From positions 1 through 45,616 of IMG/VR virus record IMGVR_UViG_3300012532_000100: a stretch of DNA of 45,616 nucleotides; one strand, written 5' to 3'. This stretch comes from a virus. Both the position numbers and the translations under genes were made by a program. Below the pieces are notes generated by a model. It had not been told where the DNA came from, made no database searches, and saw nothing but the letters and a program-made list of their open reading frames with translations. Of the stretch, positions 3,286-45,464 are shown piece after piece. Positions within the stretch are counted from its first letter, which is position 1, and the number at the start of each line of letters is the position of its first letter.

Positions 3286-5286
3286 ATGGCGACGTTGGTG
3301 TACCGCTACGGCGTTCGCGCGCACGGGTCAGCGCGGCAGCAGGATGCCGTGGTGTCGGATCCAGCGATGTTGGAGCAACTGCGGCTCGGCCACGAGCTCC
3401 GCAACGCCCTGGTGGGGGTGCAGCACCGGTACGAGGACGGCAAACGCGCGGTGTGGTCGGGGTTCGCGTCGGTGGCCGCGGCGGATCACCGGGTAACCAC
3501 CGGCGAGACCGCCGTGGCCGAACTGGAGAAGCAGGCCCGCGCTGAACATTCCGCCGACCGCACCGCCGCCACGCGGCAGGGCACGGCCGAAAGCCTCAAG
3601 GCCGCCCGGGCCGCGGTGAAACAGGCCCGCGCCGACCGCAAGGCCGCAATGGCAGCCGTGGCCGAGCAGGCCAAGCCGAAGATTCAAGCGCTGGGCGACG
3701 ACCGCGATGCTGAGATCAAGGACCTGTACCGGCGGTTCTGCCAAGACGGTGTCCTCCTTCCCCGGTGTGGCCGCTGCGCAGGAGACCTACGCAGCGACGG
3801 CGACTGTACCGACTGCGGCGCCGCCCACGAGCCGCGCAAGCTGTACTGGGCCACCTACAACGCCATCCGGGAGGACCACCAGACCGCCGTGAAGCTGGTC
3901 GAGGCCAAGCGCAAGGCCGGCCAGCCGGCCCGGCTGCGGTTCCGCCGCTGGACCGGCGACGGCACACTCACCGTGCAGCTGCAACGCATGCACGGCCCGG
4001 CCTGCCGATGCGTGACCTGCGCCGAGAAGCTGACCCGACGCGCCCGCAAGACCGACCCGCAGGCGCCCGCGGTCGCCGCCGACCCCGCCTACCCGCCCAC
4101 CGACCCGCCCCGCGACCCGGCGCTCCTCGCCTCGGGGCAGGGCAAATGGCGCAACGTGCTGCAGCTGGGCACCTGGATACCCCCGGGCGAATGGTCGGCG
4201 ATGAGCCGCGCCGAGCGGCGCCGCGTCGGGCGCAGCCACATCGGCTGGCAGCTGGGCGGCGGTCGCCAGCTGACCCTGCCGGTCCAGCTGCACCGGCAGA
4301 TGCCCGCCGATGCAGATGTGGCCATGGCGCAGCTGACCCGCGTCCGTGTCGGCGGCCGGCACCGCATGTCGGTCGCGTTGACCGCGAAACTCCCCGACCC
4401 GCCGCAGGTGCAGGGCCTGCCGCCGGTGGCCCTGCACCTGGGGTGGCGGCAGCGGCCCGACGGGTCGCTGCGGGTGGCAACCTGGGCCTGCCCGCAGCCC
4501 CTCGATCTGCCACCGGCCGTAGCCGACGTGGTCGTCAGCCACGGCGGCCGCTGGGGTGAGGTCATCATGCCCGCCAGATGGCTGGCCGACGCGGAGGTTC
4601 CGCCGCGGCTGCTCGGCCGCCGCGACAAGGCCATGGAACCCGTCCTGGAGGCCCTCGCGGACTGGCTGGAAGCACATACCGAAGCGTGCACCGCCAGGAT
4701 GACCCCGGCGCTGGTGCGGCGCTGGCGCTCCCAGGGCCGCCTCGCCGGGCTCACCAACCGGTGGCGCGGCCAACCGCCCACCGGTTCGGCCGAGATCCTG
4801 ACCTACCTGGAGGCGTGGCGAATCCAGGACAAGCTCCTGTGGGAGCGGGAAAGCCACCTCCGTCGCAGGCTCGCCGCCAGACGCGACGACGCCTGGCGCC
4901 GCGTCGCTTCCTGGCTCGCGCGCCACGCCGGCGTCCTGGTCGTCGACGACGCCGACATCGCCGAGCTACGCCGCCGCGACGACCCGGCCGACACCGACCC
5001 GACCATGCCCGCCAGCGCCGCCCAGGCCGCCCGCGCACGTGCGGCCCTGGCCGCCCCAGGCCGCCTGCGCCACCTGGCCACCATCACCGCGACCCGCGAC
5101 GGCCTCGGCGTACACACCGTGGCCTCGGCCGGCCTGACCCGGCTGCACCGTAAATGCGGCCACCAAGCCCAACCAGATCCCCGCTACGCCGCCTCCGCCG
5201 TCGTGACCTGCCCGGGCTGCGGCAACGGCTACGACCAGGACTACAACGCGGCCATGCTCATGCTGGACCGGCAGCAGCAGCCATGA
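3286..5286 (+). CDS. cas12m: Cas12m-like type V-M CRISPR effector
   Basis: A 666-aa protein starting at ATG 3286 (GAGAGG upstream; an earlier TTG at 3241 lacks a ribosome site). It resembles, from memory, the mycobacterial Cas12m2 sequence along its length: LYWATYN (186-192), GKWRNVL (286-292), LPVQLHRQMPADAD (331-344), VALHLGWR (381-388), VVDDADIAEL (552-561), KCGH (623-626), CPGC (642-645) and YDQDYNAAML (649-658). The last blocks are RuvC-II, the zinc ribbon and RuvC-III of the TnpB/Cas12 fold. In RuvC-I the catalytic Asp is replaced by His384, and RuvC-II has Asp554/555 where Glu is usual. Studied Cas12m proteins bind crRNA-matched DNA at 5'-TTN PAMs and block transcription without cutting. 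Residues 70-145 are coiled coil. Extra cysteine sets at 161-177 (CxxC-x9-CxxC) and 240-245 are absent from the homologue I remember. The stop overlaps the cas4 ATG. Confidence 0.9.
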   Translation: MATLVYRYGVRAHGSARQQDAVVSDPAMLEQLRLGHELRNALVGVQHRYEDGKRAVWSGFASVAAADHRVTTGETAVAELEKQARAEHSADRTAATRQGTAESLKAARAAVKQARADRKAAMAAVAEQAKPKIQALGDDRDAEIKDLYRRFCQDGVLLPRCGRCAGDLRSDGDCTDCGAAHEPRKLYWATYNAIREDHQTAVKLVEAKRKAGQPARLRFRRWTGDGTLTVQLQRMHGPACRCVTCAEKLTRRARKTDPQAPAVAADPAYPPTDPPRDPALLASGQGKWRNVLQLGTWIPPGEWSAMSRAERRRVGRSHIGWQLGGGRQLTLPVQLHRQMPADADVAMAQLTRVRVGGRHRMSVALTAKLPDPPQVQGLPPVALHLGWRQRPDGSLRVATWACPQPLDLPPAVADVVVSHGGRWGEVIMPARWLADAEVPPRLLGRRDKAMEPVLEALADWLEAHTEACTARMTPALVRRWRSQGRLAGLTNRWRGQPPTGSAEILTYLEAWRIQDKLLWERESHLRRRLAARRDDAWRRVASWLARHAGVLVVDDADIAELRRRDDPADTDPTMPASAAQAARARAALAAPGRLRHLATITATRDGLGVHTVASAGLTRLHRKCGHQAQPDPRYAASAVVTCPGCGNGYDQDYNAAMLMLDRQQQP

Positions 5287-6934
5287 CCGGGCCGCGGGAC
5301 GTGCCGGCGCTGGTGCCGGCCAGGATGCTCACCGAGTACGCCTACTGCCCGCGGCTGTTCTTCCTCATGTGGGTCGACCGGCTCATGGCCGACAACGCCG
5401 ACGTCGCCGAGGGCCGACGCCGCCACCTGAGGGTAGACAAGCCCACCGGCAAGGTCCCACCACCCGGCGGCGACCTGAAGATCGCCCGCTCGGTGGAGCT
5501 GGGCAGCGAAGAGCTCGGCATCATCGCCAAGCTCGACCTCCTCGAAACCACCCCCGGCGGCACCGTGACGCCGGTGGAGTTCAAGAAAGGGCGACCGGCA
5601 CCCGCCGGCGGGGCGTGGGAACCCGACACGGTCCAACTCTGCGCGCAGATCCTGCTGCTTCGCGACCACGGCTACGACTGCGACTACGGCTACCTGTACT
5701 ACGCCGCGACCCACCAGCGCATCCAGGTCGAACCCACCGAAGAGCTGATCGACAAAACCCTGGCCATCGTGCACGCCGCACGCACCACCGCCGAGCGACT
5801 CAAGCCGCCGCCACCCCTGGTCGCCAGCCCAAATGCCCCCGCTGCTCGCTGGTGGGCATCTGCCTCCCCGACGAGATCAACGCCCTCCGCCAGCGTGGCA
5901 CACCCACTCCTCGGCGGCTACTGGCCTCCAAGCCCGACAGCCAGCCCCTGTACGTCACCGAGCAAGGCACCATGGTCGGCGTCAGCGGCGGCCGCCTTGT
6001 CGTCACCCGCAAGGGTGAGCGGCTGACCACCGTCCGCCTGCTTGACGTACTGCAACTCTGCCTCTACGGAGACGTGCAGCTGACCGCCCAGGCCATGCGC
6101 ACGCTCCTCGACCTCGGCATCGAGGTGTTCCACTTCTCCTACGGCGGCTGGCTGCAAGCCGTCACCACCGGCCTACCCGGCAAGAACGTCATGCTGCGCA
6201 TCCGCCAGACCACCGCCGCCGCCCGCGCCGACCTCACCGCCCCCCGCCGGATGATCGCCGGAAAGATCCGAAACCAGCGAACCATGCTGCGCCGAAACGG
6301 TGGCGAGGTCTGCGCCAGGGTCGTCGGCCAGCTCGGCCAGCTTGCCGATGCCGCCGAGCACGCCGAAGACGCGGCCGAGCTGCTCGGCACCGAGGGGGTC
6401 GCGGCACGCCTGTACTTCGACGCTTTCCCCAGCCTGGTCCCGCACGCCACGGGCCTGCCCGGTCCGGCCTTCAGTGGCCTACGTAACCGGCGACCACCGA
6501 CAGACGCCGTGAACTGCCTCCTCAGCTTCTGCTACGCCCTGCTCACCAAAGAGATCATGGCGGCGGCGGTCACCGTCGGTTTCGACCCCTACATCGGCCT
6601 GTTCCACCGGCCGCGCTTCGGCCGGCCAGCCCTCGTCCTAGACCTGGCCGAAGAATTCCGGCCACTGGCCGCCGACTCCACCACCATTACGCTGATCAAC
6701 ACCAGGCAACTCGGCCGCGACGACTTCGTGGTGCGCGCCGGCGCGGTCAACCTCACCCCAGCGGGGCGCAGGATCGTGATCCGTGCCTGGGAACAGCGCA
6801 TGACCACCGAGCTGCGCCATCCGGCCTTCGGCTACCAGGTCTCCTACCGGCGCGCAATGGAGCTACAGGCCCGGCTGCTGGCAGCCGCCCTGATCGGTGA
6901 CGCACCCCGCTACGACCCGTTGACCACCCGGTGA
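5283..6934 (+). CDS. cas4-cas1: Cas4-Cas1 fusion joined by a -1 frame change
   Basis: Two halves in different frames together give a 550-aa adaptation protein. The Cas4 half starts at ATG 5283 (ATGA overlap with cas12m): Cys22 in YCPR, Asp85, the nuclease motif VEFKKG (Glu99, Lys101) and Gln118. At 5828-5834 the frame moves by -1. The new frame begins with the three remaining Fe-S cysteines (CPRCSLVGIC, 185-194) and continues into Cas1, starting near PLYVTEQG, with catalytic Glu371 (GTEG), His442 (GLFH), Asp454 and Glu457 (LDLAEEFRP). Without the shift, translation ends at 6026, giving 247 aa that lack those cysteines and all of Cas1. Cas1 integrates spacers; Cas4 trims prespacers and selects for PAMs. 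Fusions of this order are known from other subtypes. A real mutation or a sequencing error is the alternative. Confidence 0.85.
5828..5834 (+). promoter_or_regulatory. Slippery heptamer C_CCA_AAT, candidate -1 frameshift site
   Basis: In the Cas4 frame the codons are AGC CCA AAT, so the site reads X_XXY_YYZ with X=C, Y=A. Slipping back one base puts the two tRNAs on CCC and AAA, and the next codon, TGC, is the first of the Cas4 C-terminal cysteines. This matches the form of programmed -1 sites. I see no convincing stimulatory hairpin at the usual distance; GCCC/GGGC (5835-5838/5854-5857) could pair weakly. Confidence 0.6.
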
Positions 6935-6941
6935 GCCGGCC

Positions 6942-7226
6942 ATGGCCCGGCGCCGCTACCTGCTCGCCTACGACGTCCGAGACCAACGCCGCCTCCAGTT
7001 GGTCGCCCGCTGCGCCGAAGGCTTCGGCGACCGCGTGCAGTACTCCGTCTTCGTCTGCGACCTGTCCGAGGTCGAGCTGATCAAGATGAAGACCAGCCTC
7101 GAACTGTTGATCGACAGAGGGCAGGACAGCATCATGGTCATCGACCTTGGAAGCGAGGACGCCTCCCGCTTCACGTTCATGGGCCAACCACTGAAGCTGC
7201 CCAACAACTCGGCGCTGATCATCTAG
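6942..7226 (+). CDS. cas2: CRISPR-associated endoribonuclease-fold protein Cas2
   Basis: A 94-aa protein with the hallmark YDVRDQRR near the N-terminus and GDRVQYSVFVCDLS (conserved Cas2 second block), the usual size for the family. Cas2 dimers bridge two Cas1 dimers in the spacer-integration complex. The ATG lies 7 bases after the cas1 stop, so it shares the operon, and the leader and array follow directly. Residue Asp10 in YDV is retained. Confidence 0.97.
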   Translation: MARRRYLLAYDVRDQRRLQLVARCAEGFGDRVQYSVFVCDLSEVELIKMKTSLELLIDRGQDSIMVIDLGSEDASRFTFMGQPLKLPNNSALII

Positions 7227-7411
7227 CGGACCGCGAGCGGCACATCGAGCAGAACCGCCAGCGTGGCCGCTCGCAACAGCAGAACACCAGGTGAAGGCCA
7301 CTGAACCACAAGACCGAGACCCCACCAAGTTCCTTGACACCTCCACACAGGCCAGGCCGCTCGCGAGCTCAGCCAACATCGCAGCTCACGGCTGCTTCAC
7401 CAGAGCGAGCC
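7227..7411 (+). promoter_or_regulatory. CRISPR leader
   Basis: The 185 non-coding bases between cas2 and the first repeat. Array decay is at the far end, and the only identifiable protospacer has a 5'-TTT flank when read in the plus direction; both place the leader here and transcription to the right. TTGACA occurs at 7334-7339, but no good -10 follows at the right distance. Confidence 0.75.
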
Positions 7412-9653
7412 GTCGAAATGCCCGCGCGGGGGCGTCGTACCCGCGACCGCGTGGCCGCCGGTGCGCAGGTCGGTGATCTTGGCCGTCGAAATGCCCGCGC
7501 GGGGGCGTCGTACCCGCGACAACTGGTCGTGACCTACCTACCGCCGACCAACGAGGTCGAAATGCCCGCGCGGGGGCGTCGTACCCGCGACGTGTCGGCG
7601 GCGCCAGTTCGACCAGTGCAGCCAAGTCGAAATGCCCGCGCGGGGGCGTCGTACCCGCGACCGCTGCTGTCGATCTGGCGGCGGGCCGTTCGTATAGTCG
7701 AAATGCCCGCGCGGGGGCGTCGTACCCGCGACTCGGCCTCGGTCCGGCCGATCCCGCCGGCGGCCGAGTCGAAATGCCCGCGCGGGGGCGTCGTACCCGC
7801 GACTGATCTCCATCATGGTCTGGCCATCGCGGGATCGGATGTCGAAATGCCCGCGCGGGGGCGTCGTACCCGCGACGGAACCCCGGGCGAGGTGATGTCG
7901 CAGGTCAGCACCTCGTCGAAATGCCCGCGCGGGGGCGTCGTACCCGCGACGGTACTCCTGGTCCGGCGACCTCGACCGCAGCTTCGGTCGAAATGCCCGC
8001 GCGGGGGCGTCGTACCCGCGACCAGAAGGCCGTGTATCCGGTGACAACGACCCACGTCGAAATGCCCGCGCGGGGGCGTCGTACCCGCGACCCGAAGCGA
8101 CACTACGCCGCACCCGCAGTGGCACCCGTCGAAATGCCCGCGCGGGGGCGTCGTACCCGCGACCCTGAAACGAGCGGCGAGGAGCACACCCGCTTCCTCG
8201 TCGAAATGCCCGCGCGGGGGCGTCGTACCCGCGACGGATGAGGAGTTCGCCGGCGAGGTTGGTGGCATCCTGTCGAAATGCCCGCGCGGGGGCGTCGTAC
8301 CCGCGACATCAAGCACGACGAACCCTGGCCGCCTGTCCGGCCGTCGAAATGCCCGCGCGGGGGCGTCGTACCCGCGACCATTTGGGTAACTTTGGTGAGG
8401 CTTGCTATGGCCCTAGTCGAAATGCCCGCGCGGGGGCGTCGTACCCGCGACCGGTGGGCCGTGACGTTGCTTCGCTTACGCGGCAAGTCGAAATGCCCGC
8501 GCGGGGGGCGTCGTACCCGCGACTCCGCCATCGTGTGGAATTCACCACCTCACCGTGGTCGAAATGCCCGCGCGGGGGCGTCGTACCCGCGACTGAGTCT
8601 CCACGACTCACGCCGGTCCGGATTCCGTCGAAATGCCCGCGCGGGGGCGTCGTACCCGCGACGGGATATCTGAATACCAAGATACTCACATGCGACCAGT
8701 CGAAATGCCCGCGCGCGGGGGCGTCGTACCCGCGACAGGATCTTGACCATGAGCACGTTCTGGGCAGGCGGGAGTCGAAATGCCCGCGCGGGGGCGTCGT
8801 ACCCGCGACCTCTGCACTCGGGCCGAGATCAAGGACTTCGAAGAGCGTCGAAATGCCCGCGCGGGGGCGTCGTACCCGCGACCGGGGCAACAGGTTTTCG
8901 TCGCGCTGGCCCTCCGGCGGGTCGAAATGCCCGCGCGGGGGCGTCGTACCCGCGACGTGGGCAGGCACATGGTGTGGTTCCCCGCGCGGGGGCGTCGTAC
9001 CCGCGACTGGGCTGATGTCGTCAGCTTCTCGGTGCCGCGGCGAGGTCGAAATGCCCGCGACGGATGGCGCGTTACCGGTTATGCGCGCGGTTAGGGCGGT
9101 CGAAATGCCCGCGCGGGGGCGTCGTACCCGCGACTGGCCCCTGTTCTCGGTCGCGCGGTCGGGTCGACTTGTCGAAATGCCCGCGCGGGGGCGTCGTACC
9201 CGCGACGTGATGCAGGTCGACCTGCGGGACATGAAGGCCGCGGAGTCGAAATGCCCGCGCGGGGGCGTCGTACCCGCGACGAGGACATCGGTATCCATCC
9301 TTCGGTGGCGTCGCACGGTCGAAATGCCCGCGCGGGGGCGTCGTACCCGCGACACCAACAGTGTCGGTAGCGCAGTCGCGATCGACCTGTCGAAATGCCC
9401 GCGCGGGGGCGTCGTACCCGCGACCTGTATCGCCCGTCCCCTCTCGATCAATGTCGACGGGTGTCGCAATGCCCGCGCGGGGGCGTCGTACCCGCGACTG
9501 GGAACCGGTCGGCAGGGGTCCCGTCCCCACCGCACCGCGAGCGTCGCAATGCCCGCGCGGGGGCGTCGTACCCGCGACGGCGCCGGGTACCGCACCCCGG
9601 CCGCCATGCGCGGAGGTCGAAATGGCCCCGCGCGGGGGCGTCGTACCCGCGAC
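7412..9653 (+). CRISPR. CRISPR array, 32 repeats and 31 spacers, type V-M
   Basis: Repeats are 36 bp, beginning GTCGAAATGCCCGCGCGG and ending GTCGTACCCGCGAC. The 3' part folds into a 6-bp hairpin (CGCGGG/CCCGCG, 9-nt loop) two bases before the spacer, as in other type V crRNAs. Repeat starts: 7412, 7485, 7556, 7626, 7697, 7768, 7841, 7915, 7987, 8056, 8128, 8200, 8272, 8343, 8416, 8487, 8558, 8627, 8699, 8774, 8847, 8921, 8981 (first 9 bases lost), 9045 (17 bp only), 9099, 9171, 9245, 9318, 9389, 9463, 9543, 9616. Spacers are 33-38 bp except one of 44 and a 24-base remnant. Repeats 16, 19 and 32 have 1-2 extra bases; repeats 30 and 31 start GTCGCAATG. Variants toward the right support that end being oldest. 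Spacer 1 (7448-7484) matches the prophage itself. Confidence 0.98.
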
Positions 9654-15779: not shown

Positions 15780-16889
15780 TTAGGCGGGCTCGTACTCGAG
15801 GTCCCAGCGGATGATGTCGGTCTGCGCCCAGACGTGCGGGTTGTTGTTGGTGACGTCCCCACCCGCGGCGGCGATCAGCAGCAGGTTGTTGGCGTCGGCG
15901 AAGATGCAGATGCCGGCCTTGTTCTGGGTGCCGACGTCGGCGAGGTACGCCGAGCCGACGGCCCGGCCGATCGCGTTGGCGCTCGCGGCGACGGGTGCGG
16001 TGACGCGGTAGCTGCCGGTGCCGAAGGTGGTGCTCGAGCCGAAGGTCATCGCGCCGGCGACCTTGACCATGCCCTTGTCGAGGCTGGAACGGCGCCAGTA
16101 GCCGCCGATGGTTCCGTTGCCCAGCGCGGGTGCGGTGCCGGTGGTGGTCCACACCGGCACGTAGGAGGTCCAGTCGCCGTTGAGCCAGGCGCCCGCGGTG
16201 ACGTCATAGACCTCGATGCGTTTGAGGTCCATGCGCCAGATCGTCATGCCGTCGTACTGGACGATGAGGTCCCGTTGCGCCTGGTTGGCCACCGGCAGGA
16301 TGCCGCCGACGGCCACGCTGTACAGGCCGCCGATGAGGCTTTTCGCGTGGCCGCCGGTGCGCAGGTCGGTGATCTTGGCCGCGGTGATGGTGTTGGCGTT
16401 GGCGTCCACCCGCACCCGGGCCAGGGCGACGTAGTCCTGCGACCCGGTCACGGTCGGGTCCGACGGCGTACCGGACGGGGCGCCGACGACCTGCCGGACC
16501 TGGAAGGGGCTTGACGCGTCGCCGTAGAACGTGTCCGACTGCTGGGCGATGATCAGGTCGTCGCGGGGGTTGGTCGGGTCCGCCGGCGTCGAGAGAACGT
16601 TGATGTCTTTCTGGGCGTCCAGGCACGCCTGGTACACCCCGGCGACGCTCGCGCGGCCCGACTGCAGCATCAGCTGGAACGGGGCGACGTGGACGAACGC
16701 GTCGGGGGTGCCGGTGGCCGTCACCAGGCCGGGGCTGGTGCCCGGGCCGGGCCGGAAGCCGCTCTTGGCCTTGACGATGCTGGCGCTGGAAGGCGTGACG
16801 AGCGCGCCGATGGCCACGCGGCATTCCTCGACGTCGAGGAGCCCGGACGGGCCGGAGGCTTGCACCGCCCACGAGTCGCGCTCGGCCAC
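15780..16889 (-). CDS. Tail fibre / minor tail protein, target of CRISPR spacer 1
   Basis: A 369-aa protein. The N-terminal part (VQASGPSGLLDVEECRVAIG) resembles the baseplate-attachment start of actinophage fibres; the middle carries DYVALARVRVDANANTITAA, then ITDLRTGG, typical of baseplate upper-type fibre proteins; the C-terminal 130 residues are Gly/Thr/Asn-rich beta sheet suited to receptor or glycan binding. CRISPR spacer 1 equals codons for AKITDLRTGGHAK (about residues 170-182). The gene lies between the other tail genes and the lysis-like genes in one minus-strand transcript. Confidence 0.8.
   Translation of the reverse strand: MAERDSWAVQASGPSGLLDVEECRVAIGALVTPSSASIVKAKSGFRPGPGTSPGLVTATGTPDAFVHVAPFQLMLQSGRASVAGVYQACLDAQKDINVLSTPADPTNPRDDLIIAQQSDTFYGDASSPFQVRQVVGAPSGTPSDPTVTGSQDYVALARVRVDANANTITAAKITDLRTGGHAKSLIGGLYSVAVGGILPVANQAQRDLIVQYDGMTIWRMDLKRIEVYDVTAGAWLNGDWTSYVPVWTTTGTAPALGNGTIGGYWRRSSLDKGMVKVAGAMTFGSSTTFGTGSYRVTAPVAASANAIGRAVGSAYLADVGTQNKAGICIFADANNLLLIAAAGGDVTNNNPHVWAQTDIIRWDLEYEPA
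16344..16380 (+). other. Protospacer: exact 37-bp match to CRISPR spacer 1
   Basis: All 37 bases equal 7448-7484. The bases just 5' on the plus strand (16341-16343) are TTT, a valid 5'-TTN PAM for Cas12m. The 3' side reads GCGGTG. The neighbouring sequences differ from the CRISPR repeat, so this is a true target and not a copy of the array. Confidence 0.98.
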
Positions 16890-43936: not shown

Positions 43937-45346
43937 ATGCCACGCCAACCCAACGGCCGCCCGTCGATCTATCCGGGCTCCGATGACAGGTACCACACCT
44001 ACGTGACCGTCGGGCTGAAGCCTGACGGCACATCCGACCGCAGGCACATCAAGCGGAGGACGGCGGCCGCGGTCGCCGACGCGGTCGAGGAGCTGCGGCG
44101 GCGGGTCGATGCCGGCGGCGGCGCCGCGCCCGGGAAGATCGAGACGGTGGCGGAGTGGCTGACGCACTGGCTGGAGAACGTCGTGCGCCCGGCGCACCCG
44201 CAGACCACCTACCGCGCGTATCGGTCGCTGCTGACCATCCACGCGGTCCCGACCATCGGGCGGTACCGCCTCGACGGGTCGCGCAGCCGGCTTGAGCCCG
44301 AGCACGTCCAGACCCTCTACGCGAAGATGCGCCGGGCCGGGCTGGCGCCGCTGACCGTGCTGAAGATGCACCGCACCCTGCACAAGGCGTTCGCGCTGGC
44401 CAAGCGGCAGGGCAAGGCGGTCCGCAACGTGTGCGACCTGGTCGACACCCCGGAGGCCAGGGCGAAGAAGATCGACGCCTACGACCTGGACGACGCGCAG
44501 GCGCTGCTGGCCGCGGTCGCCGGCGACCCGATGGAGGCCCGCTGGCTGGTGGGCATCCTGCTCGGGCCGCGGCAGGGCGAGGCACTCGGGATCCGCTGGT
44601 CCCGGGTCAAGCTGACCGGCAAGCGCCCGCGCATCAACCTGGAGAAGCAGCTGCAGCGCTACACCTGGCAGCACGGCTGCGCCGACCCAGCGGCCTGCGC
44701 GGCGCCGCGCTGCCGGCGCCAGCCGTGCGGCCCGTCGTGGGCGCACGGCTGCGCCGAGCCGGACTCCTGCAAGCGAAACCCGCGATTCTGCCCCGCTCGC
44801 GTCCCGGCGAAGTGCCGGCGGCACACCCGGCCGTGCCCGGCGGCCTGCCAGCCGGGCTGTGCCCGCCACGCGATGCACTGCCCGGAGCGGGTCGACGGCG
44901 GCCTGGTCGAGGTCGACCTGAAGACGGAGAAGTCCCAGCGGGGCCTGCCGCTGACGCCGTGGGTCGTCGAGGCGCTCAACCGCCGGCAGGCCCGGCAGAT
45001 GACCGAGTGCTTCGACCGCGGGGTCTCCTGGGACCCGCAGGGGCTGGTCTTCACCACCCCGGCTGGGGCTCCGGTGGACCCGCAGCGCGACCGGGCGGCG
45101 TGGCGGGCGCTGGTCGCCCGCGCCGGGGTGCCCGCCAAGCGGCTGCACGCCGCCCGGCACACCGCCTGCTCGCTGCTCATCGCCACCGACACCGACATCT
45201 CGGTGGTGAAGGAGCTGGCCGGCCACACCGACGTGAGGATGACGCTCGGTTACGTTGATGTGGTCGACAAGAGCATGCGGAAGGCGGTCAAGCGGCTGGA
45301 GAAAGCGCTCCGGAAGGACAAGCCCAAGCGATCACGCGAACGGTAG
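43937..45346 (+). CDS. int: Tyrosine integrase with cysteine-rich insertion
   Basis: A 469-aa recombinase. N-terminal arm-binding part, SAM-like core-binding domain (VAEWLTHWLENVVRPAHPQT), and catalytic residues Arg212 (LLGPRQGE), Lys in DLKTEKSQRG, His404 and Arg407 (HAARHT), His in AGHTDVRM and nucleophile Tyr439 (LGYVDV). Between the first Arg and the Lys lies an insertion of about 75 residues with 12 cysteines, probably metal-binding. It joins attP to the tRNA-Thr site; arm sites and the terminator follow. Confidence 0.95.
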   Translation: MPRQPNGRPSIYPGSDDRYHTYVTVGLKPDGTSDRRHIKRRTAAAVADAVEELRRRVDAGGGAAPGKIETVAEWLTHWLENVVRPAHPQTTYRAYRSLLTIHAVPTIGRYRLDGSRSRLEPEHVQTLYAKMRRAGLAPLTVLKMHRTLHKAFALAKRQGKAVRNVCDLVDTPEARAKKIDAYDLDDAQALLAAVAGDPMEARWLVGILLGPRQGEALGIRWSRVKLTGKRPRINLEKQLQRYTWQHGCADPAACAAPRCRRQPCGPSWAHGCAEPDSCKRNPRFCPARVPAKCRRHTRPCPAACQPGCARHAMHCPERVDGGLVEVDLKTEKSQRGLPLTPWVVEALNRRQARQMTECFDRGVSWDPQGLVFTTPAGAPVDPQRDRAAWRALVARAGVPAKRLHAARHTACSLLIATDTDISVVKELAGHTDVRMTLGYVDVVDKSMRKAVKRLEKALRKDKPKRSRER

Positions 45347-45417: not shown

Positions 45418-45464
45418 GAGCCGCCTGTCGGAATCGAACCGACGACCTGTGCTTTACGAGAGCA
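45418..45464. repeat. attR: right 47-bp attachment repeat
   Basis: Identical to 77-123. It forms the 3' part of the intact tRNA-Thr gene, so phage DNA restored the tRNA on integration. Confidence 0.93.

Follow-up and report, generated by a model that had tools for sequence, protein, structure and literature searches.

The window analysed here is a 45,616-nucleotide stretch of DNA, an IMG/VR virus record (IMGVR_UViG_3300012532_000100), in which an integrated element is bounded by two copies of a 47-bp att repeat: attL at 77-123 and attR at 45418-45464, both on the plus strand. The repeat is the 3′ end of a tRNA-Thr gene, within which attR lies, and it occurs exactly twice in the window. A tyrosine integrase gene adjoins the tRNA (43937-45346, plus strand; phrog_1, 4.8e-50), and the minus strand carries a mostly tightly packed series of late genes (11875-32190) including those for terminase, portal, protease, capsid, tail tube, tape measure and Dit, together with the gene targeted by the CRISPR array and genes downstream of it. 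With att repeats, an integrase and virion genes, the element has the hallmarks of a prophage. The possibility that a host array merely lies beside a prophage was rejected, as no third att copy is found between the array and the phage genes even when 16 of 47 positions may mismatch. Since the only two att copies enclose the cas genes, the array and the target, the CRISPR locus is phage-borne and the match described below is truly a self-match. This agrees with a sequence-only reading that preceded our analysis and had taken the target to be the prophage's own.

A second record (IMGVR_UViG_3300012204_000085; 29,642 bases) covers window positions 1-29585 and differs by three SNPs over those 29,585 bases (6394, 8176 and 8189), a comparison between two assemblies that possibly represent the same population and are therefore incompletely independent. 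It holds spacer 1 and its target at the same spacing as in the window, and none of the SNPs falls at either. An artefact of a single assembly, which the sequence-only reading had named as one finding that would overturn it, is unlikely given this agreement in both array and target. Two of the three SNPs lie within a single spacer, spacer 11 (8164-8199).

Effector and adaptation genes

The effector gene (3286-5286, plus strand) encodes a 666-aa Cas12m (type V-M) protein that matches the PADLOC Cas12u1 model at 3e-132 and the solved structures of GoCas12m (8pm4, 1.5e-101) and MmCas12m2 (8hio, 3e-87). Read residue by residue, the alignment places the RuvC triad H384-D554-D652 opposite His317, Asp485 and Asp579 of MmCas12m2, and all four PAM contacts of that protein (Tyr141, Trp152, Asn156 and Gln197) are conserved, as Y148, W188, N192 and Q233. 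Cas12m proteins with an HDD triad bind DNA tightly without cutting it, silence transcription and block plaque formation in E. coli (PMC10442227, PMC11013384). On the strength of family membership, the H-D-D triad and the conserved PAM contacts, it is a well-founded prediction that the present effector would likewise bind DNA without cutting, and the earlier premise of a Cas12m-type, binding-only effector gains support at that level. Two cysteine-rich inserts in the effector, at residues ~157-185 and 238-272 (CGRC..CTDC and CRCVTC), are absent from three aligned plasmid relatives. A search for the effector in phage records found none.

The effector gene is followed on the plus strand by an adaptation module consisting of a Cas4-domain frame (5283-6026), a Cas1-domain frame (5852-6934) and cas2 (6942-7226). 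Both of the first two frames are best matched by the type I-G Cas4/1 fusion (NF049935; PADLOC Cas1g), the Cas4-domain frame providing the N-terminal half up to ~5831 (model positions 1-179) and the Cas1-domain frame the C-terminal half (positions 187-546), and Cas2 is best described by the Cas2g model (2.9e-30). The frames part at the heptamer CCCAAAT (5828-5834, plus strand), where Cas4 leads into Cas1 by a -1 change that lies just before the Fe-S cysteines and is common to both records. The single open frame expected of type I-G Cas4/1 is thus absent here, whereas relatives retain it at 546-550 aa, and two genomes encoding Cas12m relatives carry an I-G-like Cas4/1 elsewhere as one frame. The break may be either a one-base lesion or a site of ribosomal frameshifting, the heptamer having the form X XXY YYZ; a stem downstream of it is mildly stable (z -1.9). 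With the Cas4/Cas1 frame interrupted, spacer uptake may no longer work, and the module may be decaying; should the break be a lesion, the acquisition of spacer 1 may have been one of the last. Missing adaptation genes are typical of V-U1 loci (PMC11013384), and cas4, cas1 and cas2 are absent from the flanks (up to 10 kb, some cut by contig ends) of ten genomic and three plasmid Cas12m relatives. The presence of all three genes here departs from this type V-M trait, but their absence is typical rather than defining, and the effector keeps its assignment to Cas12m.

The array and its self-matching spacer

The CRISPR array (7412-9653, plus strand) comprises 32 copies of a 36-nt repeat, two of them truncated, and 31 spacers of 33-38 nt with exceptions of 23 and 44. 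A presumed leader (7227-7411, plus strand) adjoins perfect repeats on the cas2 side, while repeats at the distal end are degenerate (9463, 9543 and 9616), which makes spacer 1 (7448-7484, plus strand; 37 nt) leader-proximal and gives the same polarity as the earlier description of it as the newest spacer, first after the leader. The truncated repeats (28 and 17 nt) lie together at 8957-9098, and one of them leaves a 23-nt spacer.

External protospacers were accepted only if the match began at the first base of the spacer and spanned most of it. On this basis, protospacers in actinobacterial plasmids or genomes were found for spacer 3 (28-30 of 34 bases; 5′ flanks CTG, TTG and TTG), spacer 19 (34 of 37; TTG, TTC and TTG) and spacer 26 (35-36 of 38; CTG), which count as three independent cases and not eight, copies of one protospacer being homologous genes. 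All have a pyrimidine at -3 and T at -2, a combination found at 6% of window positions, and they share no common 3′ flank. A search of 297 actinobacterial genomes with the whole array at E 0.01 returned mostly GC-rich noise, and the array had no match in the phage collection. The external flanks support a putative 5′ YTN PAM, with which the TTT beside the spacer 1 target agrees, as well as the plus orientation of the array, and they indicate that the array recorded real targets in that orientation. The PAM side and array direction proposed earlier are thereby backed independently. The T-rich 5′ PAM proposed with them also stands, though not as strict TTN, the external flanks (CTG, TTG, TTC) conforming to the looser YTN; together with TTT at the self site, they show the T/C-rich 5′ motif characteristic of type V-M. 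With regard to what these spacers match, spacer 3 corresponds to an IS701 transposase, and spacer 26 (9207-9244; best match 36 of 38) to a metallo-hydrolase-like gene that, on a Streptomyces plasmid, lies near a TnsA/Mu-like transposase and genes for ThiF and JAB-domain proteins. Spacer 19 (8737-8773) matches, at 34 of 37 bases, a gene found in three related genomes that encodes a secreted glucanase-like protein; this target seems to be cellular and not to belong to a phage or plasmid.

Spacer 1 is identical at 37 of 37 bases to window positions 16344-16380 (plus strand), which correspond to codons 170-182 of a minus-strand gene. TTTT at 16340-16343 lies directly 5′ of this self-protospacer, with TTT in the PAM position (16341-16343, plus strand) and a further T at 16340, and neither target nor PAM carries an escape mutation. 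Spacer 1 is accordingly self-targeting, with a match on its own replicon, outside the array and beside a fitting PAM. TTN occurs at 1.8% of window positions and TTT at 0.17%. The other 30 of the 31 spacers have no match in the window at up to 8 mismatches, irregular spacers having been rechecked; BLAST of all 31 against the window returned nothing besides spacer 1; and a search of the window with all 31 for a 5′ YTN followed by an 18-nt seed at up to 3 mismatches gave spacer 1 as its sole match, scrambled-spacer controls under the same rule giving 0-1. A chance origin is rejected on these controls and on an expectation of ~1e-9 (1.2e-9 exact full-length matches for all 31 spacers together, from base composition). 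Among the 2.9 million contigs of IMG/VR, the first 26 nt of spacer 1 occur, besides the window, only in the sister record. Partial matches to spacer 1 in three genomes (G060, G185 and G192) were taken as chance, as they run into the repeat or miss much of the spacer. The sequence-only reading was therefore correct both in the identity of spacer 1 with 16344-16380 beside TTT and in finding no second spacer that matches the window; the wider alignment it proposed, of all 31 spacers to the window and databases, gives the self-match as the only one within the window and adds the external protospacers of spacers 3, 19 and 26.

The gene that contains the protospacer (15780-16889, minus strand) encodes a 369-aa virion structural or minor-tail-like protein, matching phrog_3398 (1.4e-21; annotated as "virion structural protein") and, at 29%, minor tail proteins of Arthrobacter phages. 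Its earlier label as a fibre gene is not established by these matches. The gene sits in the closely packed late block, with several further genes called downstream. The protospacer encodes KITDLRTGGHA, of which the ITDLR part is conserved in one relative and reads IDDLR in another, and this identifies the gene as the source of the spacer and not the reverse; the idea that the protospacer was copied back from the array was rejected on this ground. Two relatives of the gene (L005 and L006, with 60% and 52% identity across the aligned portion) have not kept the protospacer site, and in IMG/VR no lineage but this one has yielded the allele. The restriction to the sister record and the divergence of the site in the nearest homologues point to this lineage as the source of the spacer. 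Pairing of crRNA 1 would be with the coding strand, so that polymerase would arrive from the PAM-distal side. With dCas12a and dCas9, approach from that side meets the weaker roadblock. In phage assays with Cas12m, both strands were effective in some cases and not in all (PMC10442227, PMC11013384).

Interpretation of the self-match

Spacers that match their own genome are common, and the usual explanations for them are loss of the target, dead cas genes or anti-CRISPRs. A perfect match of this kind is one that a cutting system should not tolerate. The explanation that we prefer here, as an even call, is that spacer 1 was derived from the phage itself or from a sibling and is tolerated because Cas12m binds tightly without cutting. 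Under this explanation, a temperate siphovirus integrated at tRNA-Thr would bear its own type V-M CRISPR-Cas12m together with a type I-G-like Cas4/1-Cas2 module, whose adaptation complex would have taken up a fragment of a late virion gene beside a correct 5′ T-rich PAM, the donor presumably being this phage or an identical sibling that shared its cell. The spacer would then persist, binding without cutting by the H-D-D effector sparing the lysogen. If the array is expressed, an effector complex would sit on the late operon at 16.34 kb, with little effect in a quiet prophage whose late genes are off; in an induced prophage or an incoming sibling, it would probably impede the target gene along with the late genes that follow. 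HDD Cas12m blocks plaques (PMC10442227, PMC11013384), and a working spacer 1 should therefore cost the phage on induction and be more than harmless. The earlier inference that a self-spacer could be tolerated under a binding-only effector is partly supported, in respect of effector type, PAM and self-location, and a cost on induction is to be expected in addition. This cost, the Cas4/Cas1 break, the PAM-distal geometry and the possible shared population of the two records are all counted against the explanation. A bolder version, in which the phage restrains its own late operon and also excludes siblings through a self-acquired guide, amounting to heritable, self-programmed CRISPR interference directed at itself, we consider doubtful.

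It is possible, if unlikely, that spacer 1 was instead taken from a competing sibling of the same allele and is retained as a defence against it, in which case the self-match would be a by-product and the benefit would lie in blockage of the competitor within the lysogen. Viruses of Sulfolobales carry arrays directed at close relatives (PMC6858448), V-M systems have been tied to competition between elements (PMC11656645), and spacers 3 and 26 of the present array are directed at a transposase and a plasmid gene. However, the Sulfolobales carriers mutate their own sites against self-targeting (PMC6858448) whereas the site here is intact, searches of IMG/VR and the phage collection found no competitor that bears the protospacer, and siblings are usually covered already by repressor immunity. 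We find it similarly improbable that the locus is a silent relic, its cas genes or array unexpressed or its adaptation broken, such that the self-match is without effect. The division of Cas4/Cas1 between two frames where relatives have one would fit such decay, as would the two truncated repeats and the degenerate distal ones, yet the effector and cas2 are intact, as are nearly all repeats, the triad and PAM contacts are retained, and interference does not require adaptation.

Selection for self-silencing, whereby spacer 1 would be kept to damp the phage's own late operon and stabilise lysogeny, seems very unlikely to us. It would be consistent with a PAM and target intact in both records, a predicted binding-only effector and a target within the late gene block, and it has a precedent in the repression of a host gene by a self-targeting type IV system (Guo 2022, cited in PMC11656645); however, just one of the 31 spacers is involved, its position as the newest gives no sign of long retention, and the target lies mid-gene instead of at a promoter, with its PAM-distal side towards the polymerase. 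That spacer 1 and its target come from different genomes, as an assembly or population artefact, is the most improbable of these explanations by our reckoning and scarcely credible: although the two records, being metagenomic or of unknown source, could have reads in common, they differ by 3 SNPs over 29.6 kb, with none at either site, and the att pair is perfect.

Relation to known systems

The locus shares with the type V-M systems of MmCas12m2 and GoCas12m its effector family, H-D-D RuvC triad, PAM-contact residues and 5′ T-rich PAM, as well as a 36-nt repeat ending in CCGCGAC, as in Gordonia otitidis, and an array that shares its strand with the effector gene. It differs from them in its 666-aa effector with two cysteine-rich inserts, its own cas4/cas1 and cas2, its prophage location and its perfect self-matching spacer; when the V-M array of Gordonia otitidis was compared with its own genome, it matched itself only. 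Cas4/1 and Cas2 are best described by type I-G models, and a studied I-G Cas4/1 uses a GAA PAM, that is, TTC on the opposite strand (PMC10504553), but here the module is paired with a type V-M effector and the fusion is split at CCCAAAT. The type IV-A system of Pseudomonas oleovorans is similar in that a CRISPR on a mobile element represses with no need for cleavage and has one spacer directed at a gene of the cell that houses it; unlike the present system, it belongs to Class 1, resides on a megaplasmid and targets host pilN, whereas the target here is the carrier element itself. The mini-arrays of Sulfolobales viruses likewise bear spacers against very close relatives, but these viruses use host Cas proteins, have mutated their own sites and encode no cas genes.

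V-M systems on prophages have been reported previously (PMC11656645). In our literature search, no report was found of the combination seen here, in which a Cas12m carried by a phage is accompanied by I-G-like adaptation genes and by a spacer that matches one of the phage's late genes perfectly and beside a correct PAM. A 2020 review noted that no natural catalytically dead CRISPR regulator had been reported and suggested a screen for inactive nucleases with self-targeting spacers (PMC6990116), a description that this locus fits with its self-targeting spacer and a nuclease predicted to be inactive. With array, effector and intact target on a single 45-kb element, tolerance of self-binding, induction cost and superinfection exclusion are directly testable. 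Moreover, the pairing of a Cas12m effector with an I-G-like adaptation module points to a way in which spacers may be gathered by some V-M systems.

A different arrangement was observed in an actinobacterial genome (L083:6272-10508; G932:C28), in which an 849-aa Cas12m-like frame precedes an array-like run whose repeats of ~28 nt recur at intervals of ~47 nt, leaving spacers of only ~19-22 nt. The repeats of this run occur in two forms whose stem halves covary (GCCGG..CCGGC and GCGGG..CCCGC).
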